From: Litoreibacter albidus
Lineage (GTDB): Bacteria > Pseudomonadota > Alphaproteobacteria > Rhodobacterales > Rhodobacteraceae
Assembly (NCBI RefSeq): GCF_900107015.1
Contig: NZ_FNOI01000003.1
Location: 62,001 to 126,000 of the forward strand
Length of the DNA: 64,000 nucleotides
Reading direction: 5' to 3'
Part shown: positions 16,067 through 62,586 of the stretch, piece after piece
How the letters are laid out: every line of letters starts with the position of its first letter
Position numbering within the stretch: the first letter of the stretch is position 1
Notes under the pieces: generated by a model
The model's database searches: none
Seen by the model: only the letters and a program-made list of their open reading frames with translations
What the model was told of the DNA's origin: nothing
Translations under genes and position numbers: made by a program

Positions 16067-16079
16067 AACGCCCCTATGG

Positions 16080-16101: not shown

Positions 16102-16126
16102 AGTTCTGATCACTTTTTCACGTGAC

Positions 16127-17335: not shown

Positions 17336-17412
17336 GACCGCCCTTTATTAGTTTACCCGACGTTGTTTTGCGCGAACCCTATCAGGGTTCAGGCCTGTGG
17401 CGAAGCGGCGAA

Positions 17413-18549: not shown

Positions 18550-18630
18550 GATATCCTCGCAGGGTTGGGGGTGTTTCACGCTTCAAAGCAGCCCCCGCGT
18601 CTGGGGTCAATCGCTGGAAAGGATCCCGCC

Positions 18631-19968
18631 ATGAAACTTCTTAGCCTTCTGGTGGTGCTATGGGCCGGATTGCTTGCCGCCCCCACCGCGCAAGCCGCGA
18701 GCCTGATCCGCGACGCGGAGATCGAGCAGGCCCTGCGCCAGTTGGCGAAACCAATACTGCGCGCAGCGGGGTTTGGCGCGGGTCGCATCCGCATTCTGGT
18801 GATTAACGACCCGAAACTAAACGCCTTCGTGGTTGATGCAAATCACGTGTTTATTCACTCCGGCCTGATCATGAAGCTTGACCGCCCAGAGGCGCTGCAA
18901 TCCGTCATCGCGCACGAGCTGGCCCATATTGCGAACGGTCACCTGACACGCCGCGCAACAAATGCGCGGGTTGCGGGGCGCGTCACGGCGATCGGTATGG
19001 CGCTCGCCGCTGCCGCCGCGGTCAGTGGCAACGGCGACGCTGCCGTGGGGCTGGCCGCAGGGACAAGCAGCGCCGCGATGCGGCGGTTCTTTTCGCACAC
19101 ACGGGCGGAGGAATCCTCCGCCGATCAATCCGCCATGCGCTACATGGCCAATGCCGGAATTGATCCCACCGCGATGATTGATGTCTTGCAAATTTTTCGC
19201 GGTCAAGAAGCGCTGCGCCCAGGTCGCCAAGACCCCTACGCGCGCACCCATCCATTGACCCAAGACAGGCTGCGCGCGGTCAAAGGCTACGTCGCAGGCT
19301 ATAAGTCCCGCGCCAAGCCAACATCGCCGGAAGCAGGCTATTGGTACGCGCGCATGTCTGCCAAGCTAAACGGTTTTTTGCGAAACCCGCGCTACGTTCT
19401 GCGCCGCAGTGAGAGCAAGGGCAACGGGGAGATCGCAGTCCTGCGCAGGGCAATCGCCTATCACAAAACACCAAACCTCAAGAAGGCCACGGCAGAGATG
19501 AACCGCCTGCTCAATATGCGACCGCGCGATCCGTATTACCACGAGTTAATGGGGCAAATCCTGATGGAGGGACGCCAGTTCAACGCGGCGGTGGCCTCCT
19601 ACAAGAAGGCCGCCGCATTGGCCCCGCGCGAGCCGCTGATTGAGGCGGGTTTGGGTCGCGCCTTACTGGCGCAAGGATCTTCCGGCGCGGTGCAGCAGGC
19701 GTTGAAAATCCTGATCCGCGCACGGTCGCGTGACCCGAATGATCCGCAGATGTTGCGCAGTCTGGCACTGGCGCACGCAAAGAACGGCCAGAACGCGATG
19801 GCTTCCGTCGCCACCGCCGAACGTTACGCCGTGCTGGGCCGCTTTGACGACGCAAAGATACATGCAACACGCGCCGTCGGGGCCCTGCCCCGCGGGTCAT
19901 CGGGATGGCTTAGGGCGCAAGATGTGTTGGCCGCAGCGCAGTCCGCCCCCAAGCGTAAACGCAAATGA
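18631..19968 (+). CDS. M48 family metalloprotease with TPR tail (BepA-like)
   Basis: A 445-residue periplasmic protein with a signal peptide at 1-23. The zinc protease core has HELAH at 95-99 (His95, Glu96, His99) and a third ligand, Glu161, in EESSAD. The C-terminal half (about 270-440) is made of helical TPR-like repeats, for example PYYHELMGQILMEGRQFNAAVASYKKA. This is the architecture of BepA/YfgC, which helps assemble or degrade outer-membrane proteins such as LptD. Most of the 200-260 region lacks charged long loops. AAAGGA precedes the ATG. A bidirectional hairpin follows the stop. Confidence 0.88.
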   Translation: MKLLSLLVVLWAGLLAAPTAQAASLIRDAEIEQALRQLAKPILRAAGFGAGRIRILVINDPKLNAFVVDANHVFIHSGLIMKLDRPEALQSVIAHELAHIANGHLTRRATNARVAGRVTAIGMALAAAAAVSGNGDAAVGLAAGTSSAAMRRFFSHTRAEESSADQSAMRYMANAGIDPTAMIDVLQIFRGQEALRPGRQDPYARTHPLTQDRLRAVKGYVAGYKSRAKPTSPEAGYWYARMSAKLNGFLRNPRYVLRRSESKGNGEIAVLRRAIAYHKTPNLKKATAEMNRLLNMRPRDPYYHELMGQILMEGRQFNAAVASYKKAAALAPREPLIEAGLGRALLAQGSSGAVQQALKILIRARSRDPNDPQMLRSLALAHAKNGQNAMASVATAERYAVLGRFDDAKIHATRAVGALPRGSSGWLRAQDVLAAAQSAPKRKRK

Positions 19969-19993
19969 AAAAGGCCGGGCAATCGCCCGGCCT
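19968..19993 (-). terminator. intrinsic terminator of rne
   Basis: Nine-base-pair stem (19972-19980 with 19985-19993) with loop AATC. On the minus strand it is followed by TTTTTCATT, so it suits termination of rne. It sits between the converging M48 and rne genes and may slow transcription in both directions. Confidence 0.8.
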
Positions 19994-20017
19994 GTTCCAA
20001 TTCAATTCACCTATCGT

Positions 20018-45948: not shown

Positions 45949-48900
45949 TTAGAACTTGGCGATCAGGTTGATGAACATGCCTTTGTCGTCATACGTCAGG
46001 TCCGTCAAATCGTCGGAAAACGTACCGAAGTTGTAGCCAACGCCGACCTTGTAGTTGTTCCCGATATGACGGTACGCCGCCCCCAGCAAACCGTACTCGG
46101 TGACGCCCGCCTGCTCCGCATGCAACGCGCGGCCTTCCAGCAGCACATCCCACTTATGCGTCAGGTGATAGCGAGCGTTGGCGACCAACAGCAGCGCATC
46201 ATTGTCTTGGAAGGCTGTCATCGCGTCCGGTGCGCTTTTGGACCAGCGGCCACCAATTTTGCCGCCCAAAGTCCAGTTTCTGTCAACGTCATAAGACGCG
46301 TCCAGCGACAACACGTGGCTCTTTTGACGCGGGCCCGCATCGTTGGTTCCGTCAATTTCCTGCCCGTACAGGTCATGCAGGTAGGTGTATTTGAACAGGA
46401 CGTTCAGGCGGTCATTATCAATCGGGCGGTAGGCGTAGCCCAAGGTCAACTCCGCATAGCGGCCGTCTGGCAGCGACGATCCGTCGGTGTCAGTGTACGT
46501 CCCGTCGAAGCTGAACAGCAGGCGACGTTCCTCGTCGATCTTGTAGCGCAGCGTGGAGGTCAGCGCGATGGTGTCCCCGTCACGGTTGGTCGTGGTTCCC
46601 CCACTCGTGTACACCCCGCGATCACGGCGGTACTCCAGACGCGCGGCACCTGTCACACCAGTTTGGTTCTCGTAGCGCACGCCAAAGGACAGCGCGGTGC
46701 GGTCGAAGTCACCATTCTTCGTGTCGTCAACGCGGCCCACCTCTACGGACGCAGAGTAGCGCAGGAACTCGGAGCGCGCGTAGTTCACCCCGTAGGTCGA
46801 GGTCAGCGAGCGGTGCTGCCCAAACAGGTCATAGGTGTTCTCCGCATAGACATCGACGGCTTGGCTCAGCTGTCGCGCCCCGCCCACGATGAACTTCCCG
46901 CGATCCTTACCGGACAATGTGACACCATCGAACGAACGGCCCGGATCAAGCGTGTACCCGAAGTAAGCGCTGCCGTTCTCGCCATTGTCATAGGACAGCA
47001 AGGCCAGCGCCCCGACCCCGCGCGAGCCGTCGGACACTTCGCCCTCGAACGTCCAATTCGGCGTGAACTGGTATTTAACGCCAGCGCCCACGCGGTGATT
47101 GCGTGCCAAGCCACCGGAGCGCGACACAGTCGCCTGCGCAAACAGCGAATATTCCAGTTTCGGGTTAACCGTTACCGTGGCCCGCACGGCCATATCCGTA
47201 CGCTTGCCGGTTTCGTCAGCATCACCACCCGGCGTTGCTTTATCGACATGCTCGATCCCGAAGTCATAGGTCAGACGGTCGCTGACCTTATAGGTCACCT
47301 CTACACCGCCCTCGCGAACCTTTTTGCCGGAATCATCGGTAAAATCATCGTAGTACAGGCGGTAGGACAACCGCTCTGACGGGGCGAATTCACCGTAAAC
47401 ACCGAACAGCTCTTCATCCACGGTCGTCTGGTAATCCAGTGTGGAGAACCCTGCGCGCCGTTTCTCGTAATACGCGCCCAACTGGCCATCAAGATCAGGG
47501 TTGATGTCCTTCAGGTCAAGCTGTCCCCGCGCAAGATATGCCTCGCCCGTGCCGCCCACTGCGGAGGTATTGGTCACGATCAAGCCCCCGTCAGAGGAGT
47601 AACTCGACCCGAACCCCGGCCCCTCCGTGCGGGCGTACTCCAGCTCCACAAAGGTGGTGTCCGACATCTCGTATCGCATGTCCGCACCGAATGCGGTTTG
47701 GTCGGCAAGGTCGGTTTGCTCCACCAGACCCGTCGCACCGAAGCGCAGGTTGTCGGAGGCCCAGACCTGCGCCCGCCCGCCGTAAGAATAGCCGTCAATC
47801 GTGCCTGCCGTCGGGGTGAATTCGTAGTTCACCGTCAGCTGCACCGTGTTTTCGCCTAGCGGGTTGGTGATCACCGTGCCGCCACCTGTCGCGCCGGTCA
47901 GCGGGCGCGTCAGGACAACAACACCTTGGATATAGTTGATGTCGTAGTCGCGGCCGTAAACCAGCGTCTCGCGGCTCGTGATGCGCCCCGTGTCAGGGTC
48001 GCGCACCTCAATAGCGATGGTTTCCGAGCCGATGGACAAATCTTGACGCTGCAGGAAGTAAACCGAACCACCCGTGCCGCGAAATACATCGCGCCCCGGA
48101 AGCGTGTCGGGCTGTGCGGCGTATAGGTCCAGCTCCGCGCGTGGCTCGCCCTTTGATGTGGTCTCTTGCGTTTGCACGTGGCCTTGAAAACCGTAGAGCG
48201 TGCGCTCGTTGCGCAAGAAGTGAGAACCGTCAATCTCACCTTTATAGTCGCCCCACATGGCGTAATTGCCCTCGCGCTCCGCCTTCACGTAGAACTTGCC
48301 AGAGGTCGGTGCGTCCTCCACCACGGTGCTATCATCGCCGTAGACCGGATAGGCTTTGTCGCTGTCCAGCCGCAGCAGCAAGTGGCGCGGGTCTTTCTTG
48401 TCGAGGTTGCGGAAAATCTCGCTCAGGTCGTCTTCGCCGGTGTCGGCGCTCGCGGTAATCTGCCAGCCCTTTTGCGTTTTGCCTTTGACGTAGAACGCCA
48501 GCCGCCCACGGTCGTAATACTTGTCGGCAGAGCCGCCCGCCGTGTTCTTGCCCGCGTCCTCGCGGTAACCGAACGTCAGATCAATCGTCGCCACCCCGAA
48601 CCATTCGGAGCGCGGGATTTCGACAGAGCGTTGCAGGTACACGTCCTGCCCCGCGCCGTTGATCCGCACGTCAATATCCTGATCGCCCGCAGGCAGAATG
48701 CGCTGCAACACGAAGCTGCCGTCTGGGGCCGGTGTCACGCGTTCGCCCAAGGTCTGCACAGTGGCCCCTTGGCGCACGCCTTTGCCGAAAACGGTTACCG
48801 CGCCGCCCGACACCGGAATGCCGCGCACACGGGTCGCGTCGCTGCCCTCCTCGGCCTCGGCGAACACGCCTCGGTCGTCGCCGCCGTCCATGCCCAATGG

Positions 48901-49512
48901 CTCTGTCTCGTTGTAGCGGCCACGTGCGTCGTAGACGCGGTGGATCGCAACGATGTTGTCACCCTCTGGGATGGTCACAGACACCGTGCCGTTCGGCTGT
49001 ACGGGCACCACGCTTAGCGTTTTCGGGCCCGCCGGATGGCCGATGTCGACAAGGCGCACATCGCCGCGCGTCAGATAGGCCGGATAGTTGGTCCGCGACC
49101 GGAATGTGACCACATCGCCCGCTTCAAACGCGGCAGTTTGGTCCACGGCGACCAGATCAAGGCGCGGCACAGCGCCCAACCCGTCGAACTTCACTTGCAC
49201 ATCCGCATCCGCCAGCGCGATGTCGGTTTTGCGCACGGCATCTTCGACGCGCGTGTCGCCGATAACCGCCTCCCCGTCGATGGAAATCAGGAAGCCGTCC
49301 CCCCCGACCGCAGAGTTCCCACGGTCGAGTTCGTTGTTCTCGCCGCTTTCCACCGCCACCACTTCGGAGGCGTTGGACTGCGTGCAATTGGTCGGAAGTA
49401 CACCGTTCACCAAGGCACAATTGGTATCAAAATCCGCCTCTTGGGCATGACCCACACCCGCCCATGTCAGGGAGGTCGTGGTGATCAAAATGGCGCGTAA
49501 GGTTTTGTTCAT
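45949..49512 (-). CDS. large outer-membrane beta-barrel protein, partner of the giant repeat protein
   Basis: A 1,187-residue exported protein. It has a signal peptide (about 1-22, ending GHA), a short Asn/Cys/Thr-rich stretch, one or two beta-sandwich domains (about 50-330), then a long region of alternating amphipathic strands (about 330-1187) ending in NLIAKF. A final Phe after a beta strand is the usual signal for outer-membrane barrel assembly. A segment FRGTGGSVYFLQRQDL leading into YGRDYDINYIQGVVVLTRPL at about 490-560 looks like a conserved domain joining the parts. I see no clear TonB box or plug. The ATG at 49512 is preferred to one two codons upstream, with AGGA about eight bases away. 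The giant repeat gene ends 18 bp upstream, so the pair is probably one operon. The role as anchor or exporter is inference. Confidence 0.75.
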   Translation of the reverse strand: MNKTLRAILITTTSLTWAGVGHAQEADFDTNCALVNGVLPTNCTQSNASEVVAVESGENNELDRGNSAVGGDGFLISIDGEAVIGDTRVEDAVRKTDIALADADVQVKFDGLGAVPRLDLVAVDQTAAFEAGDVVTFRSRTNYPAYLTRGDVRLVDIGHPAGPKTLSVVPVQPNGTVSVTIPEGDNIVAIHRVYDARGRYNETEPLGMDGGDDRGVFAEAEEGSDATRVRGIPVSGGAVTVFGKGVRQGATVQTLGERVTPAPDGSFVLQRILPAGDQDIDVRINGAGQDVYLQRSVEIPRSEWFGVATIDLTFGYREDAGKNTAGGSADKYYDRGRLAFYVKGKTQKGWQITASADTGEDDLSEIFRNLDKKDPRHLLLRLDSDKAYPVYGDDSTVVEDAPTSGKFYVKAEREGNYAMWGDYKGEIDGSHFLRNERTLYGFQGHVQTQETTSKGEPRAELDLYAAQPDTLPGRDVFRGTGGSVYFLQRQDLSIGSETIAIEVRDPDTGRITSRETLVYGRDYDINYIQGVVVLTRPLTGATGGGTVITNPLGENTVQLTVNYEFTPTAGTIDGYSYGGRAQVWASDNLRFGATGLVEQTDLADQTAFGADMRYEMSDTTFVELEYARTEGPGFGSSYSSDGGLIVTNTSAVGGTGEAYLARGQLDLKDINPDLDGQLGAYYEKRRAGFSTLDYQTTVDEELFGVYGEFAPSERLSYRLYYDDFTDDSGKKVREGGVEVTYKVSDRLTYDFGIEHVDKATPGGDADETGKRTDMAVRATVTVNPKLEYSLFAQATVSRSGGLARNHRVGAGVKYQFTPNWTFEGEVSDGSRGVGALALLSYDNGENGSAYFGYTLDPGRSFDGVTLSGKDRGKFIVGGARQLSQAVDVYAENTYDLFGQHRSLTSTYGVNYARSEFLRYSASVEVGRVDDTKNGDFDRTALSFGVRYENQTGVTGAARLEYRRDRGVYTSGGTTTNRDGDTIALTSTLRYKIDEERRLLFSFDGTYTDTDGSSLPDGRYAELTLGYAYRPIDNDRLNVLFKYTYLHDLYGQEIDGTNDAGPRQKSHVLSLDASYDVDRNWTLGGKIGGRWSKSAPDAMTAFQDNDALLLVANARYHLTHKWDVLLEGRALHAEQAGVTEYGLLGAAYRHIGNNYKVGVGYNFGTFSDDLTDLTYDDKGMFINLIAKF

Positions 49513-49530
49513 GTTCATAATCCTGCTCCC

Positions 49531-52500
49531 CTACTGCACGCGCTTGATGCTGCGTTCGATGTTAAGCTTGTAGCGACCGGCCCCGCGCCAACGATCGCGC
49601 ACCAGAGCCTCCACCGCTTTCAACCGTGCATTGGCAAGTTTGTTGCTTTCGTCGCGCAGGATGTAGCTGAGGCGCAGCACCGACGGCGTCGATTTGATCC
49701 GCGCGATCAGCCCCTCCACACCCTTCTCCAAGGCAGGCGACGGTTCCGATGTTGCCCCCACGAAGGCCTCACGGGTCAGGTCGATATCGACCACATTGGA
49801 CAGCGCCGCGCCGAAGTTCAGCTTGGCGAATTTACCGGCCGTCACACGGATCACCCGCGGGTTCTCTGTGGTGACACGGTAGCCCGTGGGCAAGGTCCGC
49901 GTGTCCAGCTTCAGCGTGAAATTAGAGCCGATATCTTTCGGCAACTCCGCACACGGCACGTGGTAACGACCATGCGCGTCGGTGGTGATTAGCTGGCCTT
50001 TGACTGTCGCAAGACGCACGCCAGCCAAACCGGGCTCGCCCTGATCTTGGTAGCCGTTCTGGTTTTTATCGTCGAAGACCTTGCCGATGATGTCGGAGCA
50101 ATCGAAGACGTGCTCCGGCTCCACGCGCACCGTGGCGGTGGCAACGTTCGAGATCGGGTTCCCCGCCGCATTGGCCAAGAAGCCACGGTTGGTCAGCTCG
50201 CCGTAAGACCCGTTCGCCACCACCCGCGCCGACAAGGTCAGCGTGATGGTTTGCGCCGGCGCCACCGTCAGGCCCGGCCATTCCAGCCGCAGCCCCGTTG
50301 CATTGGGTTCAACCAACGCGCCGTCTACGCGCGCCGTGTTCGGGGTATAGAGCATCCCCGCCGGCAACACGTCGACCAGAGTGGCATTCGTGACCGTCGA
50401 CGGCGTGTTGTTGGTGAAGGTCAGCGAGAAGTTCACCGCCTCACCAAAGACCGCCGCGTCACGGTCAGCCACTTTGGTCGCCTGAAGATCAGGCGTGCCC
50501 GCGCAGTTTTCCATCGGAATGTTGTTGTTCAAAATGAACGGGTCGCCCGCCTCCAGCACGAAGCTCAGGTAGAACGGGTTCGCCCCAGCGGTGAAGTCCG
50601 CAAGGCGGTCCGTCGCGCCGAACTCGGACGAGCCGATGGACGCAGGGTTCGCAGGCAGCAACGACGTGGCATCCAAGGCCGGATTGGCCAAGCGGCTGGT
50701 CGAGGCAACACCCGACGCCGGATAGGTCGGCGTGATTGTGTATGTCCCTGCGCGCGTTGCGAAGAACTGGAACTCACCGTCCGTGCCGTCTTTGACAATG
50801 GTGATGAAGTTGCTGGTACCCACGCCTGTTTGCGTGCCCGCCGGCCCCGTCACAGAGACCGAGCCGCCCGACAGAATGCGCCCGTCGTCCTGACAGTAGA
50901 AGTAGCCCGTCGGGTCATAGTCATCCGCATCGGCTACGCCGTCGCCGTCACGGTCAGCGGTGGAGGATTCCAACGTGTCCGGCACGCCATCCCCGTCACT
51001 ATCCGTCACGCTCACACCTGCGCTGGCGTCTTGCGGCGCTGTCAGCAGGTCAGTGGTCAAATTCGCCACGTTGAGACCGGGAACGCCTGCACCTTCGGTG
51101 CTGTAGATCACGTCGATCTCGACGGTCCCCGTCTCACCCGGTGCCAATGTCGGTGTGCCGCTCAGTGTCGTGCTGGTGCCTGCCCCGTCATAGGCCGCAT
51201 TTGCGCCACCGTCGGTGAAGCCATTGGCCCGCACGGTGATGCCGAAGGGCGCATCGCGCAAGACCTCGGCAGAGCCTTCGAACCCGCTTAGATCATCAAC
51301 AATCTGGTAGCTGGATTGCGTCACGTTGCCAGTGTTCGTCGCGGTCAGCGTGAAGGTCACCTGATACACCATCGGGAACAGGTTAACCGGCACCGACGCC
51401 ACTTTGGTGAAGTCGTTTGACGGCGCGGCCTCAATCACCGCGACGGTTGGATCGTCCACATCGTTGCCGTCGTTCGGGTCATCATCGCGCGACACGTCGC
51501 TCAGCGCATCCCCAGTCGGCGTATTGGCCGTTGCGGTTACGGTGACAGAGTTGCTCACTCCGCCCGCGTCGACGTCCTCTTGGGTCAGGATGTAGGTCAC
51601 CGCATAGGTCGCAACTTCCGTCGGAAGCAGCGTGCCCTCGGCAGAGTCCAATGTCGCATTGCTGAATGTGAGGCTGGTTGGTGTCAGCGCCACATCATCC
51701 GCACGGCGCAGGTTTTCTGCCAAGGCGACGTTGCTCACGCTTACGTTGCCCGTGTTCGTGACCTCAATCGCGAACTCGACCAGACCACCCGCGAAGGGCT
51801 CATCCGCCGACACGAGCCGTTTCACCACGTCGATGGCAGGGGCTGCAGGGATCACAACCACGGTCGGGTCTTGGTCCACATCGCCGTCAAACGGGTCGTT
51901 ATCTGCCGATATGTCAGACACCACTTCATCGTCAGGCCCCGTGCCCGCCACCGTCGCGGTGTTGGATATGCCGCCCGCGTCGATGTCGTCTTGGGTCAAC
52001 GTGTAGGTCGCGTTCCAGATCACTTGCGTGCCAGCGCCAATAAAGGTGCCGTCGCCCACTGGGGTTGGCCCCGAAGTCAGCGCCAATGTGGCACCGTCTG
52101 CGCGGGTCAACTGGTCGGTAATTGTCACCTCGTCGATATCGACGTTACCGGTGTTGGCCGCCGTGATGCGGAACACCACGTCCTCGCCCGCAAGCGCCCC
52201 AGCGGAGACAACCTCTTTGGTGACCACAAGGCGTGGCTCCGACGTGATGGAGACCACGGTTTTGTCGTCCTCAGTGTTGCCGTCACCATCATTGCCGTTG
52301 TCGGATGTGTCATTCACTGCGACATCATCCGGCCCGACAGCCGCCGCGACCACCGAGTTTGAGACGCCTTGTGCGTTCAAATCGGCCTGCGTCAACGTGT
52401 AGGTCGCGGTGTAGACCCACGTCTCGTCCACGTCCAGGCGGCCATCGCCGTCGGTGTCACTTGTCGCGTCCAGCGCCAGAGGATTATCCAAGGTGACCAC

Positions 52501-55500
52501 ACGCCCGTTCAGGTTGCGGGTCATGGTGTCGGTCAGCGCCACGTCGTCTAGGGTGACGTTGCCCGTGTTCTCCACGCGCACCGTGTAGCTGATCACATCG
52601 TCCACCTCGACACCGGTGAAATTCGCCACCTTCGTGGCCTCCAGCGCAGGTGCGCGCGTCGGGCCGTCGGTGGTGATGGTGGCAGTCGCGTCCGCGTCAT
52701 TGCCGAGTTGGTCCTTGGCCGTCACGTTCACCGTGTTGCTCAGGCTCCCCGCGTCGACCATCTCCTGCGTGACCTCGAGCGTGAAGGTGCAACTGTCATC
52801 CGTCGTGCCGACATCAAGCCGCGCAATTTCGCAGGCGGGGCCGTCGTCAAGGCTGTCGTCCACAGCGACGTTGAACAAGGTCACATTGCCGTCGTTCTTC
52901 ACATCAAAGGTGTAGGTGACCGATGTGCCCACCGCGCCGAATGGCGACACATTGGCCGACTTCACGACCGACATCAGCGGGTTTGGCGTAGGTGTGACCG
53001 TTGTTTCTGTGGCGGTCTCGCTTAGCTCCGTACCCAATGGCGTTAGCGCCTTAACGGTGGCCGTGTTTTCCACTTTTCCAGCGTCCACGTCATCTTGGCT
53101 GATGGTGTAGGTCGCCTCGCACTCAAGGCTCTCGCCCCGCAGCAATTCTGGCGTGCTACAGCTCAACGTCGGGAAGAAGTCGACATCCGTCACGCTGACC
53201 GTTTTCAGCGTTTGGTTGCCCGTGTTGGTGACGGTGAACGTATAGGTCACATCCGTGCCAGCCGGACCGGACGGGTTCGGCGCAGCCACCTTGGTGAAGG
53301 ACAATTCAGGTGTCAGGTCAGCATCGACCGTCACACTCATCGGTGCGGAGCTCAACGGCGTGTCGTTTTCACCAAACAACGTCTGCGCATATGCCTCATT
53401 GGTCACTTCACCCGCATCCAGATCAACTTGCGTGGCACGATATGTGCCCTCACAGGTCAACGTCTCGCCGGGGCGGAAGTCTGGGTCATTCGCCGGATCA
53501 GCGTCAGGGTCAAAGCAGACAATCTCACCGATACGGTCGTCGTATACCGTTACCACAGAGGCGAACGCCCGTGTCCCCGCGTTGAAAACGCTGAAGGTAT
53601 ATTTGATCGGGTCGCCGACTTCGCTAAACGTCGCGCCGTCTTCTGCGACTTTGGTGATCTCCAGCAGCGGTGTTGCCGCGTCGGGGATGGTTTCAGTCAC
53701 GGTCGGGCTGATCGTCGCCCCGTCGGACGCGCTGGCGCGGTTGGTGACCTGCCCGATGTCCACGTCCTCTGCCGTCACCTCATATTCCGCTTCACAGATG
53801 TAGGTGCCTTCCGGCGCGATACCCTCGGCCGGGAACGGTGTCGGACAGACAACTGTGTCGATCAGGTTGTCTGTCACAGTGATCGGGTCAAAGATTGTCA
53901 CGTTGCCCGTATTGGTCACCGTGTAGGTGTAAGTGATCTTCGCGGTAGTGAAGAAGTCTTCTGGACGCACCTCCTCCGCTTCCTTCAGCAGCTCCATTTT
54001 AGGCGTCTGGATCGCCGGTACATTCAGAGTGGCTTCGGGGCTGGTGGTCGCGCCGCTGGTCGCAGTGGCAGAGTTGTTCACGCCGCCCGCATCCACGTCC
54101 GATTGCAACACCGTGTAGTCACCAAAGCAGCTTACGCTGGCCATAGGGGCCACTGGGGGCGCCGGACAGGTGATCGTGCCGCCCGCATCGGTGATCAGCG
54201 CATCAGTGATGGTGATCGTATCCGTCAGCGTCACATTGGAGTCGTTGGTGACCACGAACTCATAGCGCAGCACATGGCCGTCCTCGGTGAAGCTCTCGTC
54301 TTCACCGTCAACCAGCTTCTTCACCAAGCTGATTTTGCGGTCCTCAGGGATAACAAGAACGGTCGGGTCATTGCCCGTGTCCCCTGCCCCCGTGTCACCG
54401 TCATCCGACGTGTCGGTTACCGGTACCCCGTTCAACGGAGTGCCGCTCACGGCCGCAGAGTTGCTGATCCCGCCCGCATCAATGTCGTCTTGCTTTAGCG
54501 TGTAGCGGCCCGTGTATGTCGCCACTTCACCCGGCAGCAGTGTTCCCACGGCAGAGCCCTTGTCAGCCCCCGCAAAAACCAATGCCGCATCCAGTGCCAA
54601 CACCGTGTTCGCATCGTCGTTACGGGTCAGCGTGTCCACGACGTTTACCGAATTCAACGTCACGTTGCCGTCATTGCTGACCGTGATCGCGAAGGTCACA
54701 ACCCCGTCCACTGCAACCGTGTTGGAGGTGATCGTTTTCACCGAAGAAATCGCAGGCGTCACGTCAATGTCGAACGGCGTCGGGCTGTCATCCCCGCCGG
54801 GCAACCCGTTGCCGGACCGGTCCTGCACAGGCGTATTATCAGGGGCCGCAGTCGTCACAAGTACGGTGTTGTCGATCCCGCCCGCGTCAACGTCGGCCTG
54901 CTCCAGCCTGTAGGTTGCAAGATATGTCCACGTCTCCCCGACATCCAAAGTGGCGGCCGGTGCGTTATTCCCGCTGGTCAATTGGGGCTGCGTCGTCAGT
55001 GACAGCGCCGCGCCGCCGTTGCGGGTCAGGTCGTCGTCCAACGTCGGCGCATCCAGCGTCACGTTGCCTGCGTTGCGCACGTCGATCTGGAAGGTGACCA
55101 GGTCGCCCGCCGCGCTGCCTTCGCTCGACAGCACGGTTTTCTCGACCACGATGGCCGCGGTGGTGGCTTCAACCGGCACATTGACCGTCGTGCTGTCCGT
55201 CGGCGCTGTGGTGCCTGCGGGGCTTGTGGTCGACACGCTCGCGGTGTTCGACAGCACTTGTTTCGCGTCCACATCGGCTTGGGTCACGGTGTAGCGTGCG
55301 GTGAACTCCACCGCGTCGCCCGGTGCCAAGCTGTCCCAAACGCCGTTTGCCGCCGCATCTGTGGAGTTGCCCGCGATGCCCGCGTCAACAACCTGCACAT
55401 CGCCCGCAATCGTCAGCGCGCTGCTGCCGCCCGCACTTGCGTGCGTGTCAGACACGGTGACATCGGTAAGTGTCACATTGCCCGTGTTGGTCACGCGGTA

Positions 55501-58500
55501 TGTATATACGATTTCGTCGTCGACCTTCGCGTCCGCCGTGATGGACGGCGTTTTCGTCAGGCTCACACCAGGCGTCCGCGTGGCGTTGATCGTCACGCTG
55601 GACGCTTGCGGTGTGGGGTCGGCAGGCGTCGGGGCCGGAACCGGCGATTCATCATTCTCGACGCTGGCCGTGTTGGTGATGCTGCCCGCATCCACGTCTG
55701 CCTGCGTGACGATGTAGTCACGGGTACAGGACACAAAGGCTTGCGGCGCAAGACCGCCCGCAGGGATGGTGCCACATGCGAACGGGTCGGCTTGGATTGC
55801 CGTGTCAGTCACAAAGGGCTGCGTGAAGAGTGTCACGTTACCCGTGTTGGCCACCGTGAAGGTGTAGGTGATCGTCTCCCCTGCGGTGGTGAAACCGGTG
55901 ACATTCGCGGATTTGTTGAACGACAAGCTTGGCTCTGCTGGCGGCCCAACCACCAACACGTCGCCTTGGCCCGTGGTCGGGCCAGCGCCTGCGCGCGGTG
56001 TGCCGGTGGCCGTTGCGGTATTCGTGAAGGACCCCGCGTCCACCTCGGGCTGCTGCACGGTGATCGTGAAGACACAGGAGTTATCGCTCTTGCCCGGTGC
56101 CAAGGTGCCAACGTCGCAGGTGCCGCTGATCAGGTCGTCGGTCACTTCGATGTTGTCGACAGTGATGTTGCCGGTGTTTTCCACCTCGATCACAAACGTC
56201 ACCACTTGCCCCGGTTGGGTGTAGGCCGGATCGGTGCCGTTGATTGGCTCCGGCGAGATGCGCTTGGTCACGGTCAACTCGTCATTGGGCATATCTACGG
56301 CCAGCACGTTCAACGCGTCGGCGGTCTTGATGTCCCCGTTCGGTGCCGCACCGCGCACCGACGCAGTGTTGCGCACCTCTTGGTTGTCGATCATCGCTTG
56401 GGTCACCGTGACAGTGCCCGTACAGATCAGCGGGTCCCCATTGGGGTCAAGGTCGGCGCTGGTCACAGAGTTTGCCCCCTGCGTACAGGCCAGCGACGGG
56501 ATCAAAGGGTCAGATATGCTGGCCCCAAGGATGGTTTGATTGCCGGAGGCCGTGGCCGTCAGCGTATAAGTTAGCGTGTCGCCAGCGGAGGCCGCCGTTG
56601 CGGGCGAGACCTCTTTGGTCAGCGCCACCAGCGCCTCTACGTCACCGTCGACCTTCAAGGTCTGCGGCTCGGACTGCACAGGATCGCCGCCGAACTCGGT
56701 CAGCGCGGAGGCGACGTTGGTCACAGACCCACGGTCAAGGTCTTCTTGGGTCACTGTGTAGGTTTGCGTACAAATCGCGATCTCTGCAGGCTCAAGCTCC
56801 AACCGCGAGAACACGCCGCCCGACGGATCAACACACGGGATGGCGACACCTGGGAATTTGTCGTCCGTTATCGTTCCGGGCGAGGAGAGATCAACGTTAC
56901 CGGTGTTTGTCACCTCGTAGACGTAATTGATTGTGTCACCCACCGCGGCGAATGTCACGCCGGACGCTGGCTCCGTCCGCTTCAGAACTGAAACAGCTGG
57001 ACTGGCGTCCAATGGATATTTGGTGCTCGACGACGCGGACACAATCGGGCCGCCGTCCGGCAATGTGCCTCTGGCGGTTGCGACGTTCACCGCAGAGCCA
57101 AGGTCAATGTCATTTGCGGTAACCGTGTAAGTCGCTCCCACACAGGTGTAGCTCTCGGTTGGCTCCAGCACCGCTGGAACCGCCGCAGCACCCGACGCGC
57201 CCACACAGGTATAAGGCCCCAGCTTCGGGTCGTTAATCAACGTCGCCGCATCAATCGCAATTGACACGTTGCCATCATTGGTGACCTCAAACTCGTAGCT
57301 CAGCTCTTGGTTCTCGAAGAACCCTTCGTTGCCGACCGGCCCCGTTGCAGACAGGAACCTTTTTTCAACGACTAGCAGCGGGTTACGCAGCGCGGGCACC
57401 GTCACGCTGTCGGTGTTCGACACTGTCGTGGCATTCGCCAGATCCGGCCCGATATAGGCCTGCGCAATGTTGGTGACTTCGCCGTCGTTCACGTCTCCTT
57501 GCGTGGTGGTATATGGTTGCTCGCAGGTCGCAACTTCGGTGGGCGCAAGATCCACAACGCTACACACCAAGTCGGTGCCAAAACGGTCATCGTTTACGGT
57601 GATGTCGTCGGTGATCGTCGTGTTGCCGGAGTTGGTCACGAGGTACTCGTAGGTCAACGTCTCATCCTTCGCAGCGAAGCTCGCCGCAGAGGTGCTTTTC
57701 AGGCGTTTGTCCAACGTCAACGCAAAGTTCTGATCCGAATTGATGGTCAAAATGGCGTCGGGCGACGTGATCGTACCAGCCGTCGAACTGGTCGTGGCGC
57801 TGGCGGTGTTGGTGATAAAACCCCTGTCGATGTCGGCTTGCACGATGTCATAGGTCGCGGTGCAGTTCACGACGTCGTTCGGGGCCAAACCGCCCGCTGG
57901 CAATGCATCACAAATAACCGTCGACAGCTTGTCGTCACTCACCGACACCGCGTTCGGCAAGGTCACATTGCCATTGTTGGTTACCGCATAGTTATAGGTG
58001 ATCGTCTGCCCGACTGTGTCGAAGTTCCCCACCAGATCGCTGGTTTTCGCAACAACCAAGGAACGGGTTTGCACAGGGCTGTCCAGTTCCACCACGGCAT
58101 TCCCGCTCGCGGTTGTGCCCTTCTTGGAGGTGCCGCTGGCGGTGGCGGTGTTGGTCAATGACCCACGGTCCACGTCGGATTGCTGGATGGTGTAAGTGCC
58201 TGTCATCGGAACCGCCGCGCCGCCGCCCACAGGCTCGCAGGTCAGCGCCGTCGCACCGGGTGCAAGGGTTGGCACGACGCAGTTCAAGCCGATCAAAGTG
58301 TCGGTAACGGCGATGTTTTCCAACGTCACGTTGCCCGCGTTGGTCACCGAAATCGTGAAGCCTTCCGTCGTGCCCGGCAGGCCGAAGTTGCCGGAATCGT
58401 CGTCCTCGCTTTTGCTGACGGTCAGCTTGGCGTTTTCAATCGGGCCGTTCACTGTCTCTTGCGGGTTCAGCGTCAGAGGAGTGCCGTCGGCCCCCGTCCC

Positions 58501-61500
58501 TGTCACCGTTGCGGTGTTGGTCACGCTGCCTTGGTCCACGTCGTCTTGCGTCACGGGGAACGTGAATTCGCACGATGTGTCCACTTCGCCCGGCTCTAGC
58601 GTGCCGATGCTGGTGCAGGTTTGGCCGCGGTCAGACACTTCGACACCCGCGATACGTACGTTGCCGTTGTTGGTGACCGTAAAGCGATAAGTGACGGAAT
58701 CTGTGGCCACGGTATAGCCGGACAGCGCGTCTTTTACGGCGGTGAAGCTGGCGTTGCGTGCAGGGCCTGGGACCGTCAAACCAGATGTCTTCGGGTCCGC
58801 GCCAGCGCCGGAGGCCGTCGCGAGGTTCACCACCTCGCCCGCGTCAATGTCGTCTTGGGTGATGACATGGGTGAACGTACACGCGCTGCTCGACACACCT
58901 GGTGCCAGCGACGGGATGTTACAGCTATACGCGCCGTCCAGAATATCGGTTACGGTCAGGTTGGTGAGCGTTTGCAGCCCGTCGTTGGTGACCTCGATGG
59001 CATAGATGATTTCCTGCCCCACGGCCGTGAAGGACGTGCGGTTGGCAGTCTTGTCAACGCTCAGCAGCCTGTCAGTCGGTTGAACTGCGCGCGTCGCGGT
59101 GGAGCTGCTGGTAAGCGTCAATTGGCTGCCCGAGGCCGAAGACCCCGTGACACTGGCGGTGTTCAACACCGTGCCAAGGTCTACGTCCGCTTGGGTCACA
59201 TTATATGCGCCCGTACAGGTCGTGGACTCGGTCGGGGCCAAGCTGGTCACAGGGCAGCTGATCGCGCTGATCAAATCATCGGTCACCACGAAAGATCTGA
59301 TGGTGACATTGCCCGTATTCTCCACATCAAACGTGTAGTTCAGCGTCTCATTCACGGCTGTGAAGGCGGCTGGGCCGGATTTTGTGAAGGTAAACAGGAA
59401 ATTTTCGTCAATCGGTGTCTTGGCTGTCGATGCCTTTGACGTAACCGTTTGCACGCCGGAGCCGTCATTGAACGGGAAAGATGCCGTTGCGGTGTTCACC
59501 ACTTCGCCCGCGTCAATCTCTGCCTGCGTCAGCGTGTATGTCGCGGTACAATCGAAGCTCCCCCCCGGAACAATCGCGAAGGGTGCGTTCAAAACAAGTG
59601 GCTGGGCAGAGCAGTCTACCGCCCCGACCTTCGGGTCGTTGATCGTGATCGGGTTCGACGACCTCAACAATTGCGCCGTGCCGGTGTTTTGCACAGTGAA
59701 CGTATAGGTTACCGAGGTCGTGCCCGCTGGGATCGGGCTTGGGGACGCGGATTTGGTCAGCGTCACCTCTGGGGTGTCGCTATTCGATACCGTCGCCCCG
59801 TCGCTTGGCGAGGTCACGCCGTCACCACTGGCCGTGGCGTCATTAACAACCAGACCCGATGTCAAATCCTGCGCCGTCAATGTGTAATCGCGCGAACAAC
59901 TTTGCGGCGCGTCCGTCACAAGCAACGGCCCCGCGATACATTCGAACGGTGCGCCAAGTTTGCTGTCCGTAATGGTAATCGGGCCCGCGTTGTCCACGTT
60001 GCCGTCGTTCGTGACCGTAAACGTGTAGGTGATCGTGGATCCCACGCTGAAGCTTGGCGTCGGCGCGCCTGCGGATTTCTCCAGCAGCAGCGACGGGTTC
60101 TGGACGGCCGGAACAGTCAGCGTCTGCTCATCGCTCTCAATTGCGACGGCGTCACCACGCGGCGTGCCGGATGCGGTGGCCTTGTTCGTCACGCCGCCGT
60201 CGTTCACATCCGATTGCAGCGTCTCATAGGTCGCGGTGCAGGTCATCGACGTCATCGGCGCGATCTCGGTCGCGGGGCAACTTACGGTCGTTTTGTCATC
60301 CACCACGCCCACGGCATCCAAGGTCACATTGCCCGTGTTGGTCAGCACATATTCATAGCTCAGCGTCTCGCCACCCGCGTCAAAGCTCGCGGGGCTGGCA
60401 GCCGCCAGACGTTTCACCATAGTCAGACCCGTGGTGCGCGTCGCGTTGACCGTTGCGGTAGAGGTCTCCGACAAGGGCACGCCCGCGACAGTGATCGCGG
60501 CGGTGGCCGTGTTGTCGATCTTGCCCGCGTCAATATCGGGCTGGGTCACGGCGGTTTCTGCGGTACAGGTGATCAACTGGTTCGGCGCAACGGGGCCTGT
60601 TGGGCAGGTAACCGGAATGCCAAGGCTGTCGGTAATCGTCGGCGCAGAGGCGAAGGTCACATTGCCCGTGTTGCGCACATCAAATGCGTATTGGACGATA
60701 TCGCCCACGCTGTCGTAGCTCGCCGTCAACGCGCGTTTGTTAATGGTCAGCGACGGGTTCGCCGCTGGGCCGTCCAGCAGCACGAAGGACGGCGCACTCA
60801 CCACACCACCCGTAGCCGCATCGGCGGTAACTTCCGCATCGTTGCGCAGCTGCGTGCCCGCCGCGAAATTGTCCACATCGCTTTGCAACACGGTGTAATT
60901 GCCGCTGCACTGGTAGGTGGCGTCCGGCAGCATCGTGGCGACGGTGCACGACAGGCTCGGGATTTTCGGGTCCGTGACTTTGACATCCGTCAGCGTCACA
61001 TTGCCGGTGTTCTCCACATCAAACGTATAGGGCACAGTGGTGCCCGCCGCACCAAACGCGGACAGGGTCGTGCTTTTCACCAACGTGATGGCCGGGACGG
61101 CTGCCGGACCTGTCACAGTGGCCGTGTCAGTGACGTCACCCAGAACACCCGATTCCGGCGTACCCGAGGCAGTCCCGATGTTCACCACCTGCTCGGCCTC
61201 AATGTCAGCTTGCTCAATGGTGTATGTCCCGCGGCAGATCGTCTGGAACGGTTGCGGCGCCCCCGACGGGCTGTCTGGAATATTGTTGTCGTCGCAGGTG
61301 ACACTGCCCCCTTGCGCCGAAATCTTGTCATCCGACACCCCGACATTCGAAATCGGCACGGAGCCGATGTTCTTCAACACGAACTCATAGGAGATGACGT
61401 CGCCGACTTCGGTGTAAGTCGTAGGCGACGCGGTTTTCTCGATCGTCATCCCCGGCGCGACGGTCTTGATGTCTTGGTTACCCAAGCTGGGGCCGCGCTG

Positions 61501-62169
61501 GAAATCCCAGTAGTTGTCGTTGGGGTCTCTATCGAAAACTTGAATCGTGGTCTGCCCCGTGGGGCCCGTGTCCAGCAGGGAGTTCATCAAACCGGGATCG
61601 GTGGAGGCGAACCAGCCGGTGTTGAAGGTGTTGTTGCCAAAGCCCGTGGCAAAGCCAAAGCTGGATGTGCCGGTGTCATCGGTGCGCTCTGTCGTGAACC
61701 CCGACCAGCTGCCCACGTCATAGCCGTTCAACCGCAGCGTGATGTCGTTATTATCAAAGCCACCCGGTTGGGTGTCGCCATCATACGCGGAGAAGCGAAT
61801 ATCAACACGCGCCAAGTCGCCGCCGAAATAGTCGCGGCAGCTCGAATATCCGCAATCCAGCGGGATAGGATCATTCACAGTAAACGGGTTGCCGCCAAGC
61901 TCTGGCCGGTTGGGGCTGTTGTTGAACCCCTTGAAAGCATTCGCGGGGTCGGAGAACTGGTAGTAGATGTTCCCGTTCACACCGGTCATGACGATCGCCA
62001 CCCCCCCCGCCTCGGGGTAGCCCACAGGCAAGGTGATCGACGTTCCAGGAACCGTGGTCGTGAAGGTCGTGGCCTCAACCGGTGCCGCGCCCCCGAAGAG
62101 CCCTGCCCAAATGGCCGACGTTGCTACAAGTGCTTTCACCGTGGCAAAACGATTGGTCCTGGTCGTCAT
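49531..62169 (-). CDS. giant secreted Ig-like repeat protein (DUF7507/DUF11, SdrD-B)
   Basis: A 4,212-residue protein. It has a signal peptide (cleavage after about Ala33) and a unique N-terminal domain of about 210 residues. About 29 tandem beta-sandwich repeats follow, with the core V-T-N-T-G-N-V-T-L and the closing V-T-Q-x-D-V-D-A-G-x-V-x-N-T-A. After these come a thrombospondin-3-like Asp-rich stretch (DSDGDGVPD, DRDGDGVAD), a DUF11 domain, an SdrD-B-like domain with a calcium loop (DDKNQNGYQD), and a tail of about 85 residues resembling part of an OmpA-type fold. No RTX, LPXTG or autotransporter barrel is seen. The ATG at 62169 has GGGGA about seven bases upstream; an in-frame ATG 69 bp earlier lacks a site. 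My inference is an extracellular fibre or adhesin held by the downstream outer-membrane protein. Confidence 0.85.
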   Translation of the reverse strand: MTTRTNRFATVKALVATSAIWAGLFGGAAPVEATTFTTTVPGTSITLPVGYPEAGGVAIVMTGVNGNIYYQFSDPANAFKGFNNSPNRPELGGNPFTVNDPIPLDCGYSSCRDYFGGDLARVDIRFSAYDGDTQPGGFDNNDITLRLNGYDVGSWSGFTTERTDDTGTSSFGFATGFGNNTFNTGWFASTDPGLMNSLLDTGPTGQTTIQVFDRDPNDNYWDFQRGPSLGNQDIKTVAPGMTIEKTASPTTYTEVGDVISYEFVLKNIGSVPISNVGVSDDKISAQGGSVTCDDNNIPDSPSGAPQPFQTICRGTYTIEQADIEAEQVVNIGTASGTPESGVLGDVTDTATVTGPAAVPAITLVKSTTLSAFGAAGTTVPYTFDVENTGNVTLTDVKVTDPKIPSLSCTVATMLPDATYQCSGNYTVLQSDVDNFAAGTQLRNDAEVTADAATGGVVSAPSFVLLDGPAANPSLTINKRALTASYDSVGDIVQYAFDVRNTGNVTFASAPTITDSLGIPVTCPTGPVAPNQLITCTAETAVTQPDIDAGKIDNTATAAITVAGVPLSETSTATVNATRTTGLTMVKRLAAASPASFDAGGETLSYEYVLTNTGNVTLDAVGVVDDKTTVSCPATEIAPMTSMTCTATYETLQSDVNDGGVTNKATASGTPRGDAVAIESDEQTLTVPAVQNPSLLLEKSAGAPTPSFSVGSTITYTFTVTNDGNVDNAGPITITDSKLGAPFECIAGPLLVTDAPQSCSRDYTLTAQDLTSGLVVNDATASGDGVTSPSDGATVSNSDTPEVTLTKSASPSPIPAGTTSVTYTFTVQNTGTAQLLRSSNPITINDPKVGAVDCSAQPLVLNAPFAIVPGGSFDCTATYTLTQAEIDAGEVVNTATASFPFNDGSGVQTVTSKASTAKTPIDENFLFTFTKSGPAAFTAVNETLNYTFDVENTGNVTIRSFVVTDDLISAISCPVTSLAPTESTTCTGAYNVTQADVDLGTVLNTASVTGSSASGSQLTLTSSSTATRAVQPTDRLLSVDKTANRTSFTAVGQEIIYAIEVTNDGLQTLTNLTVTDILDGAYSCNIPSLAPGVSSSACTFTHVITQDDIDAGEVVNLATASGAGADPKTSGLTVPGPARNASFTAVKDALSGYTVATDSVTYRFTVTNNGNVRIAGVEVSDRGQTCTSIGTLEPGEVDTSCEFTFPVTQDDVDQGSVTNTATVTGTGADGTPLTLNPQETVNGPIENAKLTVSKSEDDDSGNFGLPGTTEGFTISVTNAGNVTLENIAVTDTLIGLNCVVPTLAPGATALTCEPVGGGAAVPMTGTYTIQQSDVDRGSLTNTATASGTSKKGTTASGNAVVELDSPVQTRSLVVAKTSDLVGNFDTVGQTITYNYAVTNNGNVTLPNAVSVSDDKLSTVICDALPAGGLAPNDVVNCTATYDIVQADIDRGFITNTASATTSSTAGTITSPDAILTINSDQNFALTLDKRLKSTSAASFAAKDETLTYEYLVTNSGNTTITDDITVNDDRFGTDLVCSVVDLAPTEVATCEQPYTTTQGDVNDGEVTNIAQAYIGPDLANATTVSNTDSVTVPALRNPLLVVEKRFLSATGPVGNEGFFENQELSYEFEVTNDGNVSIAIDAATLINDPKLGPYTCVGASGAAAVPAVLEPTESYTCVGATYTVTANDIDLGSAVNVATARGTLPDGGPIVSASSSTKYPLDASPAVSVLKRTEPASGVTFAAVGDTINYVYEVTNTGNVDLSSPGTITDDKFPGVAIPCVDPSGGVFSRLELEPAEIAICTQTYTVTQEDLDRGSVTNVASALTEFGGDPVQSEPQTLKVDGDVEALVALTKEVSPATAASAGDTLTYTLTATASGNQTILGASISDPLIPSLACTQGANSVTSADLDPNGDPLICTGTVTVTQAMIDNQEVRNTASVRGAAPNGDIKTADALNVLAVDMPNDELTVTKRISPEPINGTDPAYTQPGQVVTFVIEVENTGNITVDNIEVTDDLISGTCDVGTLAPGKSDNSCVFTITVQQPEVDAGSFTNTATATGTPRAGAGPTTGQGDVLVVGPPAEPSLSFNKSANVTGFTTAGETITYTFTVANTGNVTLFTQPFVTDTAIQADPFACGTIPAGGLAPQAFVSCTRDYIVTQADVDAGSITNTASVENDESPVPAPTPADPTPQASSVTINATRTPGVSLTKTPSITADAKVDDEIVYTYRVTNTGNVTLTDVTVSDTHASAGGSSALTIAGDVQVVDAGIAGNSTDAAANGVWDSLAPGDAVEFTARYTVTQADVDAKQVLSNTASVSTTSPAGTTAPTDSTTVNVPVEATTAAIVVEKTVLSSEGSAAGDLVTFQIDVRNAGNVTLDAPTLDDDLTRNGGAALSLTTQPQLTSGNNAPAATLDVGETWTYLATYRLEQADVDAGGIDNTVLVTTAAPDNTPVQDRSGNGLPGGDDSPTPFDIDVTPAISSVKTITSNTVAVDGVVTFAITVSNDGNVTLNSVNVVDTLTRNDDANTVLALDAALVFAGADKGSAVGTLLPGEVATYTGRYTLKQDDIDAGGISNSAAVSGTPLNGVPVTDTSDDGDTGAGDTGNDPTVLVIPEDRKISLVKKLVDGEDESFTEDGHVLRYEFVVTNDSNVTLTDTITITDALITDAGGTITCPAPPVAPMASVSCFGDYTVLQSDVDAGGVNNSATATSGATTSPEATLNVPAIQTPKMELLKEAEEVRPEDFFTTAKITYTYTVTNTGNVTIFDPITVTDNLIDTVVCPTPFPAEGIAPEGTYICEAEYEVTAEDVDIGQVTNRASASDGATISPTVTETIPDAATPLLEITKVAEDGATFSEVGDPIKYTFSVFNAGTRAFASVVTVYDDRIGEIVCFDPDADPANDPDFRPGETLTCEGTYRATQVDLDAGEVTNEAYAQTLFGENDTPLSSAPMSVTVDADLTPELSFTKVAAPNPSGPAGTDVTYTFTVTNTGNQTLKTVSVTDVDFFPTLSCSTPELLRGESLECEATYTISQDDVDAGKVENTATVKALTPLGTELSETATETTVTPTPNPLMSVVKSANVSPFGAVGTSVTYTFDVKNDGNVTLFNVAVDDSLDDGPACEIARLDVGTTDDSCTFTLEVTQEMVDAGSLSNTVNVTAKDQLGNDADATATITTDGPTRAPALEATKVANFTGVEVDDVISYTVRVENTGNVTLDDVALTDTMTRNLNGRVVTLDNPLALDATSDTDGDGRLDVDETWVYTATYTLTQADLNAQGVSNSVVAAAVGPDDVAVNDTSDNGNDGDGNTEDDKTVVSITSEPRLVVTKEVVSAGALAGEDVVFRITAANTGNVDIDEVTITDQLTRADGATLALTSGPTPVGDGTFIGAGTQVIWNATYTLTQDDIDAGGISNTATVAGTGPDDEVVSDISADNDPFDGDVDQDPTVVVIPAAPAIDVVKRLVSADEPFAGGLVEFAIEVTNTGNVSVSNVALAENLRRADDVALTPTSLTFSNATLDSAEGTLLPTEVATYAVTYILTQEDVDAGGVSNSVTVTATANTPTGDALSDVSRDDDPNDGNDVDDPTVAVIEAAPSNDFTKVASVPVNLFPMVYQVTFTLTATNTGNVTQSSYQIVDDLSGFEGSAEVLRDAPFGITVRANGFTDGGANAAYDGAGTSTTLSGTPTLAPGETGTVEIDVIYSTEGAGVPGLNVANLTTDLLTAPQDASAGVSVTDSDGDGVPDTLESSTADRDGDGVADADDYDPTGYFYCQDDGRILSGGSVSVTGPAGTQTGVGTSNFITIVKDGTDGEFQFFATRAGTYTITPTYPASGVASTSRLANPALDATSLLPANPASIGSSEFGATDRLADFTAGANPFYLSFVLEAGDPFILNNNIPMENCAGTPDLQATKVADRDAAVFGEAVNFSLTFTNNTPSTVTNATLVDVLPAGMLYTPNTARVDGALVEPNATGLRLEWPGLTVAPAQTITLTLSARVVANGSYGELTNRGFLANAAGNPISNVATATVRVEPEHVFDCSDIIGKVFDDKNQNGYQDQGEPGLAGVRLATVKGQLITTDAHGRYHVPCAELPKDIGSNFTLKLDTRTLPTGYRVTTENPRVIRVTAGKFAKLNFGAALSNVVDIDLTREAFVGATSEPSPALEKGVEGLIARIKSTPSVLRLSYILRDESNKLANARLKAVEALVRDRWRGAGRYKLNIERSIKRVQ
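50913..51005 (-). other. thrombospondin type 3-like calcium-binding segment
   Basis: Encodes alternating Asp-x-Asp-Gly-Asp-Gly-x-x-Asp motifs within the giant protein, between the last repeat and the following beta domain. Such motifs bind calcium and stiffen linkers. Confidence 0.65.
51010..61449 (-). repeat. array of about 29 Ig-like repeats in the giant protein
   Basis: Each unit encodes roughly 105-135 residues. Twenty-two units (1-17 and 21-25 from the N-terminus) have two cysteines flanking a Pro/Gly loop, typically 15-27 residues apart. Seven (18-20 and 26-29) have no cysteine, are mostly longer, and several of them end in Asp/Asn-rich linkers. The repeats have diverged and are not near-identical in DNA, so the array is old rather than recently amplified. 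Confidence 0.85.
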
Positions 62170-62586
62170 GAAGTATCCCCGTATCACATAGAGATGCAGT
62201 CGCCGAAACAGACGCTGCTTAGAAAATTGAGATGTCATTTACGGCAGGGTTGTCCCTGCTCGCGGTCTTTGGGGTAATAAACCTGCCTCAAGCCTCACGA
62301 CGCATCACGAGACTGTTAACACTCTGTCAAATGAGTCGCGGATGCTCAATGCGAAACGGTTAAAAACGGTGGGGAATTTTTTTCATTATGGGCCAGAATT
62401 AGAAAATAATTCCCTCGCAATTCTATATCTAGTCGTCTACGGCCCCGATTCCGGCAAATACGGTGACCCCATAGTTGCCCCGAATCCTCGGTCATAATTC
62501 CGCCACATTCCCGACACCCCTGCGCCGCAAACCGGTGGTGACTTGTTTAGGTAACGAGCATAAAACCTATAAAAGGAGGTCACAAA
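62170..62586. promoter_or_regulatory. divergent control region between the giant gene and the small ORF
   Basis: This 417-bp gene-free stretch holds an AT-rich island unlike its surroundings. On the minus strand TTGACA (62330-62325) is followed after 17 bp by TGATGC (62307-62302), a candidate promoter for the giant gene with a leader of about 125 nt. Overlapping it is TTAA-N7-TCAA (62316-62330), one base from the CtrA consensus. An inverted repeat GGGAATT/AATTCCC spans 62372-62414. On the plus strand AAGGAGG lies about 7-8 bases before the small ORF. Confidence 0.45.

Follow-up and report, generated by a model that had tools for sequence, protein, structure and literature searches.

The analysed window, a 64,000-nucleotide stretch of contig NZ_FNOI01000003.1 of Litoreibacter albidus (positions 62,001 to 126,000 of the forward strand), contains two adjacent genes that encode a giant repetitive protein and a predicted outer-membrane beta-barrel protein. 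Both lie on the minus strand, as do all parts of the two genes given below. The giant gene (49531..62238) encodes 4,235 amino acids (aa) from its first ATG; a start at 62169, which gives 4,212 aa, is more likely, and the ATG at that position is preceded by GGGGA and opens a sequence that resembles a signal peptide when judged by eye. The partner gene (45949..49518) encodes 1,189 aa from its first ATG and 1,187 aa from its second, and the gap to the giant is 12 base pairs (bp) or 18 bp, respectively. These frames confirm an earlier note on this DNA, which described a same-strand unit of a 4,212-residue immunoglobulin (Ig)-repeat protein and a 1,187-residue barrel 18 bp apart. The barrel gene has an open frame that relatives conserve at 23–87% identity; among named relatives, the nearest found were Litoreibacter halocynthiae and L. 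ascidiaceicola (87% over the barrel). The pair sits on contig C5 of the 3.58 Mb genome. A second giant-barrel pair is present on contig C12 of the same genome: its barrel is 56% identical to that of the window, and its giant, which is cut by the contig end, has different repeats and the same tail.

After the signal peptide, the giant begins with a domain (residues 58–261; 61456..62067) that has no Pfam match and that, from its position, is probably the tip of the protein (Pfam and NCBIfam scans were set to E 10, with most matches weaker than about E 0.1 lost to the HMMER filters). Next comes a stalk of about 29 DUF7507 Ig domains (51283..61455; 29 stretches, E=0 in Pfam). The excerpted text of PMC12617251 renames DUF11 as CLIPPER and DUF7507 as CLIPPER_2, reports a DUF11 domain structure with a Lys-Asn isopeptide bond, predicts such bonds for DUF7507, and describes CLIPPER stalks as parts of surface fibrillar adhesins. 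Using the Lys-Asp-Asn triad as defined in that excerpt, we examined the 30 rows (two partial) matched by a profile of the giant's own repeats: the Lys is present in 27/27 rows with a residue, the Asp in 27/30 and the Asn in 27/27, and 21/30 repeats share a Cys column. The stalk is a tandem array of DUF7507 domains with the CLIPPER_2 triad, and by sequence the giant is in keeping with fibrillar adhesins of the CLIPPER kind. Net charge is -9.1 per 100 residues in the stalk, which is strongly acidic, and +8.0 in the basic final 100 residues of the protein.

Ten giants of the genus (4,194–4,274 aa) have 29–30 repeats each. In each of nine relatives, and with repeats shorter than 60 residues left out, 24–29 of the window's 29 repeats are matched best by the repeat of the same index, with a mean identity of 50–78%, compared to 31–50% for the best other repeat within the giant. 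Homogenisation of the repeats was tested in these nine relatives and was not seen, same-index matches being better than those within the giant. Stalk length looks constrained, since repeat number and order are kept across the genus, though a lack of recombination would give the same picture; we estimate the extended stalk at roughly 100 nm or more. Within the genus, every genome with a giant of about 29 DUF7507 repeats also carries the barrel, and three barrel-free genomes have 2–3 such domains. The open, conserved barrel frame and the largely retained repeat order in nine relatives argue that neither gene is a product of chance.

The giant ends in a conserved tail made up of the last DUF11 (CLIPPER) domain (residues 3917–4036; 50131..50490), an SdrD_B part (residues 4037–4135; 49834..50130; Pfam SdrD_B match at 4053–4094) and an end domain (residues 4136–4235; 49534..49833) that we assign, with moderate confidence, as degenerate OmpA-like. 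Over its last 335 residues the giant can be aligned with 19 relatives, the same tail is carried by giants whose stalks differ, and two Phormidesmis proteins of only 335 aa consist of little besides it. The earlier view that the giant lacks a recognised anchor or export module needs correcting, in that a recognisable C-terminal module is present and is common to giants with differing stalks; no other export signal is found in the giant by Pfam or NCBIfam. The end domain (isoelectric point 10.3) is modelled as beta-alpha-beta-alpha-beta with a predicted local distance difference test score (pLDDT) of about 80–94. Its profile matches genuine OmpA domains of relatives with a probability of 49% (E 1.8e-4, hhalign), and the OmpA profile scores 28 bits on the equivalent domain of one relative (L094). 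Pfam finds no OmpA match in the window tail. A recognisable peptidoglycan anchor in this tail is not supported, as both the Pfam match and a conserved Asp (discussed below) are absent.

The partner protein was modelled by AlphaFold from 19 sequences (pLDDT 69.4, predicted template-modelling score [pTM] 0.61). The model has two beta-sandwich domains, split by us, at about residues 108–303 (48610..49197), followed by a beta-barrel region with a C-terminal Phe (residues 304–1189; 45952..48609). Both the N-terminal sandwich domains and the barrel-like end had been noted from the sequence alone. At the sequence level, no plug domain and no POTRA family are found by Pfam or NCBIfam; a TonB-receptor plug would have counted against the earlier reading of a dedicated pair. 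From the DSSP line of this pLDDT 69 model we counted 42 strands up to residue 1188, and we hold with moderate confidence that the barrel is very large, with about 42 strands. Structural alignments with porins span residues 303–1189, which suggests one closed barrel. An insert between predicted strands 8 and 9 (residues 480–557; 47848..48081) is perhaps plug-like; the best-conserved 60-residue window of the protein starts inside it, at residue 481, and the whole insert ranks in the top 2.6% of equal-length windows for conservation.

The closest structures in Foldseek are all large barrels, namely chain B of the Mtr complex (MtrB), Deinococcus SlpA of the S-layer deinoxanthin-binding complex (SDBC), LptD, SprA and FimD, with porins and TonB receptors following closely. 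The partner's only Pfam matches are to OMP_b-brl, below threshold (E 1.1e-4), and to DUF2490, at the level of chance. A sequence search of solved structures reached a best E of 0.17, and a further search returned only 3dwo (E 0.0019). Among 57 distinct complete open reading frames (ORFs) of the barrel family, broken halves included, 33 end in Phe and six in Tyr. The barrel is broken into two ORFs at differing points in L043, L071, L099 and L104 (overlapping frames; stop codon in L104), which may reflect sequencing errors, decay or recoding.

The barrel was found in 13/21 genomes of the genus, 16/61 near relatives, 12/385 genomes of the class and 60/398 of the phylum (Pseudomonadota), and the tail in 53 of the same 398 phylum genomes. 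The barrel search scored no more than two candidates per genome in the class and phylum sets, and the tail search no more than eight in the phylum set, so second copies are undercounted. Linkage was counted over 65 barrel and 65 tail places from the 398-genome searches; an ORF with more than one segment, or a frame with more than one row, was entered once, and four weak barrel fragments (G591 C21, G592, G689, G438) were dropped. Among strong tails (80 bits or more), 23/26 have a barrel on the same strand no more than 3 kb downstream, and in one of these cases the two share an ORF; the remainder are one tail adjacent in reverse order (G579) and two at contig ends (G601). Homologues of the two genes are mostly adjacent or fused; had they usually occurred apart, this would have counted against the pair as first described. 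A barrel is also near 23/29 tails scoring 30–80 bits and 3/10 weaker ones, and for 49/65 barrel places a tail row lies in the 3 kb upstream. At the reversed locus (L081 1246-6321), the barrel is followed by a DUF7507-containing gene, and about 10 kb separate the barrel from the tail downstream of it.

Tails are present in 12/21 genus genomes, which are all of the barrel-bearing genomes except one that is 57% complete (G019). The tail and barrel distance matrices are correlated (r 0.91, 31 loci, 0/2000 permutations as high), though shared ancestry alone would give much of this correlation, and the paralogous tail-barrel pairs of three genomes co-segregate. Named linked examples include a plasmid of Roseovarius sp. 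THAF9 (1-nt overlap), a plasmid of Sinorhizobium meliloti T073 (4-nt overlap) and Eleftheria terrae; a related pair is also found in cyanobacteria (Phormidesmis). The giant-barrel pairing is real and old.

The position of the gene boundary varies between loci. We read 55 loci, which are the best matches fetched rather than a random sample, many with no more than 1.5 kb of flanking sequence. Parts that share a chain follow the order stalk, DUF11, SdrD_B, OmpA-type domain, Ig, barrel. A single ORF holds both tail and barrel in 10/55 loci (L044, L073-L077, L090, L100, L103, L140), including a 4,545-aa giant in L073. A genuine OmpA domain precedes the barrel within the barrel's own ORF in 13/55 loci (by Pfam in L067, L086, L088, L092 and L142, by our own profile in the rest) and stands on a separate ORF in 10/55: the upstream giant in L093-L095 and L099 (Pfam), and a gene after the barrel in L004 and L140 (Pfam) and in L096-L098 and L141 (own profile). 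A tail gene followed by a barrel, with no genuine OmpA found, makes up 19/55 loci, the window's type included, and four (L068, L069, L072, L081) have neither tail nor OmpA. A chain cut at such varying points suggests that giant and barrel touch at the tail-barrel junction. OmpA domains bind peptidoglycan, so this junction should be periplasmic, and a surface stalk would then need a path across the membrane, either through the barrel or alongside it. Chance neighbourhood of giant and barrel is ruled out by the linkage, fusions and co-inheritance.

The arrangement that most changes the first reading of a strict pair is found in three genomes of the class (G153, G258, G346). Each has one full-length barrel without a tail neighbour and two strong tail-bearing giants elsewhere in the genome (frames of 805–3,783 aa); at least 2.5 kb was read downstream of every such giant and contains no barrel. 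When all candidates are scored, the only other barrel matches in these genomes are a fused 4,548-aa frame (G258) and a fragment on a 6-kb contig (G153). This arrangement suggests that the tail may act as a docking signal for a shared partner in trans. The earlier note proposed a dedicated pair and asked whether such giants always stand next to this barrel family. That proposal stands insofar as homologues are mostly adjacent or fused across the 398 phylum genomes, and fails as a general rule in these three, where one lone barrel accompanies two unlinked giants. A strictly linked, one-to-one pair is not supported.

Taken together, the pair, its linkage and co-inheritance, its natural fusions, the constant tail, the variable stalk and the isopeptide-type triads are established by sequence comparison. 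We consider it reasonably probable that the giant is a fibrillar adhesin whose dedicated barrel partner holds it and probably also exports it. Such an adhesin would comprise a signal peptide, an N-terminal tip, a run of about 29 Ig domains cross-linked by covalent bonds, and the constant C-terminal tail for docking. Once the protein has been exported by Sec, its tail would stay at the periplasmic face and dock onto the N-terminal sandwich domains of the partner, whose very large barrel with its conserved insert would hold the base of the fibre in the outer membrane; surface location, docking and anchoring of the giant are inferred. Most likely, the stalk would be threaded through this barrel while its domains are still unfolded and unlocked, with the insert conceivably acting as a gate; both this gate and export of the giant through the barrel lumen are conjecture. 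More broadly, and more tentatively, a barrel of about 40 strands might read a DUF11-SdrD_B-OmpA-like sorting tail in cis or in trans, thread and anchor isopeptide-locked giants, and serve several of them, as an undescribed export and anchoring system; we rate this wider proposal as somewhat short of an even chance.

Several observations weigh against the adhesin-and-barrel model. No barrel is near 6/29 middling and 7/10 weak tail rows, and 16/65 barrel places have no tail row within 3 kb upstream; among these 16, three have a divergent tail (G778, G609, G280) and three an OmpA domain in the same ORF (G605, G462, G576). Tail and barrel genes are unlinked in the three class genomes described above. 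Foldseek TM-scores are about 0.2 or less over the query and the model has the moderate pLDDT and pTM given above, so strand number and lumen width are uncertain. The OmpA relation of the window's end domain is moderately supported: the domain is without the Asp of the GHTD motif, which is invariant in nine genuine OmpA relatives, and the fold-match list of the tail model is filled by Ig domains, with no OmpA fold in it. Finally, the 335-aa Phormidesmis partners are short, so the core does not need a long fibre.

Other explanations differ mainly in what they ask of the barrel. It may only anchor the giant, with the stalk surfacing by another route (e.g., threading during BAM assembly, or another secretion system) before the barrel clamps the tail. 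Isopeptide-locked, Cys-bearing domains would indeed be hard to pass once folded, but Pfam and NCBIfam reveal no other export signal in the giant, and a C-terminal barrel, as in the natural fusions, is the layout of proteins that export their own passenger; we consider this alternative unlikely, though it is the most probable of those weighed here. Slightly less probable is that the barrel is a channel exporting separate DUF11 substrates in trans, the tail protein being one substrate or a gate among several. The lone barrels with two unlinked giants fit this idea, as does a C-terminal domain shared by proteins downstream of a Phormidesmis barrel (52% over 159 residues); however, the genes are linked in most genomes with strong tails, and the shared domain is not the tail.

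If the core (DUF11, SdrD_B, OmpA, barrel) were instead a periplasmic strut from outer membrane to peptidoglycan, long stalks would be periplasmic or incidental. Genuine OmpA domains beside the tail or barrel in many relatives, and partners of 335 and 374 aa (the latter near a contig end), are in keeping with a strut. Tail-bearing frames of 2,000–4,500 residues in many genomes, though, could not stand upright in the periplasm, the window's pair has no genuine OmpA domain that we could find, and CLIPPER stalks are described in surface fibrillar adhesins in the excerpt of PMC12617251; a strut is thus improbable. That the barrel is an ordinary TonB-dependent receptor or porin merely neighbouring the giant is hardly credible, despite the annotation 'TonB-dependent receptor' on 7/23 plasmid-borne homologues and the TonB receptors among the Foldseek matches: linkage, fusion and co-inheritance tie it to the tail, and the fusions contradict plain neighbourhood. 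Identity as a TonB receptor is rejected on sequence grounds, as no plug domain appears in Pfam or NCBIfam scans. Such receptors have a 22-strand barrel; our model, at pLDDT 69, shows about 42 strands, a number that is itself uncertain.

Like type V systems (autotransporter, two-partner, intimin), a fibre held by its own barrel would combine one passenger and one barrel in one chain or two genes, with the passenger first when fused, and the pair has this layout except in the genomes where the genes are unlinked. The window pair has no autotransporter, TpsB/POTRA, YadA or IAT_beta domain in Pfam, and SdrD_B, OmpA-type and Ig domains stand between passenger and barrel. Because no defining domain was found, we do not file the pair under type V or two-partner secretion despite the similar working. 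The window barrel is also predicted to be larger than type V barrels. The role of Deinococcus SlpA differs from that proposed here; SlpA/SDBC (8agd, 7zgx, 8ae1) is a low-scoring structural match that the sequence search did not return, its one hit being 3dwo, a probable outer membrane protein. The usher FimD and SprA of the type IX secretion system (T9SS) are likewise low-scoring structural matches; the pair is without an usher, pilin, chaperone or T9SS C-terminal domain in Pfam. SprA complexes appear in the Foldseek list at query TM-scores of 0.18 and 0.14, with no sequence match to SprA. Nor does Pfam find in the giant a Por_Secre_tail/CHU_C type IX cargo domain or, as a sign of the C-terminal RTX repeats of type I adhesins, a HemolysinCabind match.

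Acinetobacter silvestris B9T28_05395 (PDB 9IFR) resembles the giant, having a tandem isopeptide-type Ig stalk, an N-terminal tip region and an OmpA-like domain named as anchor; the excerpt of PMC12617251 mentions no barrel partner, whereas the window's giant has a degenerate OmpA-like end and a barrel gene as its neighbour. A precedent for a protein threaded through a barrel lumen, with a surface end and a periplasmic end, is RcsF, as excerpted from PMC4942254, but RcsF is a small lipoprotein that uses general outer-membrane proteins, with no dedicated barrel and no giant stalk in that excerpt. Literature searches, as far as result listings go, returned no description of the giant-barrel pair; one paper containing DUF7507 came up. 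In the excerpt of the survey PMC8286594, nearly half of fibrillar adhesin-like proteins are without a known anchor and new anchor domains are suggested. The tail and barrel module is a concrete anchor candidate for many Gram-negative DUF11/DUF7507 giants (60/398 phylum genomes match the barrel profile), and if the barrel also exports the fibre, it would represent a new secretion route. As a two-gene system, giant and barrel can be tested by deletion. To our knowledge, and if the model is right, the window barrel is one of the largest known.

The module may move between genomes, since transposase-like ORFs lie near the contig C12 pair and barrel homologues occur on 23 plasmid records, 7/23 with the receptor annotation mentioned above. 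The ORFs in question, recognised by eye, are a few kilobases from that pair (L001, about 7000-9900). Three of the plasmid records (H2, H5, H6) are from roseobacter strains THAF9, THAF40 and THAF197b, isolated from polyethylene surfaces according to the records. In Phormidesmis (L004), two more DUF11/SdrD_B-type proteins (14694-18413 and 18562-20499) are encoded downstream of the barrel and OmpA gene; their shared C-terminal domain is a possible second kind of export signal. The surroundings of the window pair are ordinary, with genes for a GntR regulator, a sodium/bile-acid-type symporter and an FMN reductase downstream and a nucleoside diphosphate kinase gene upstream.
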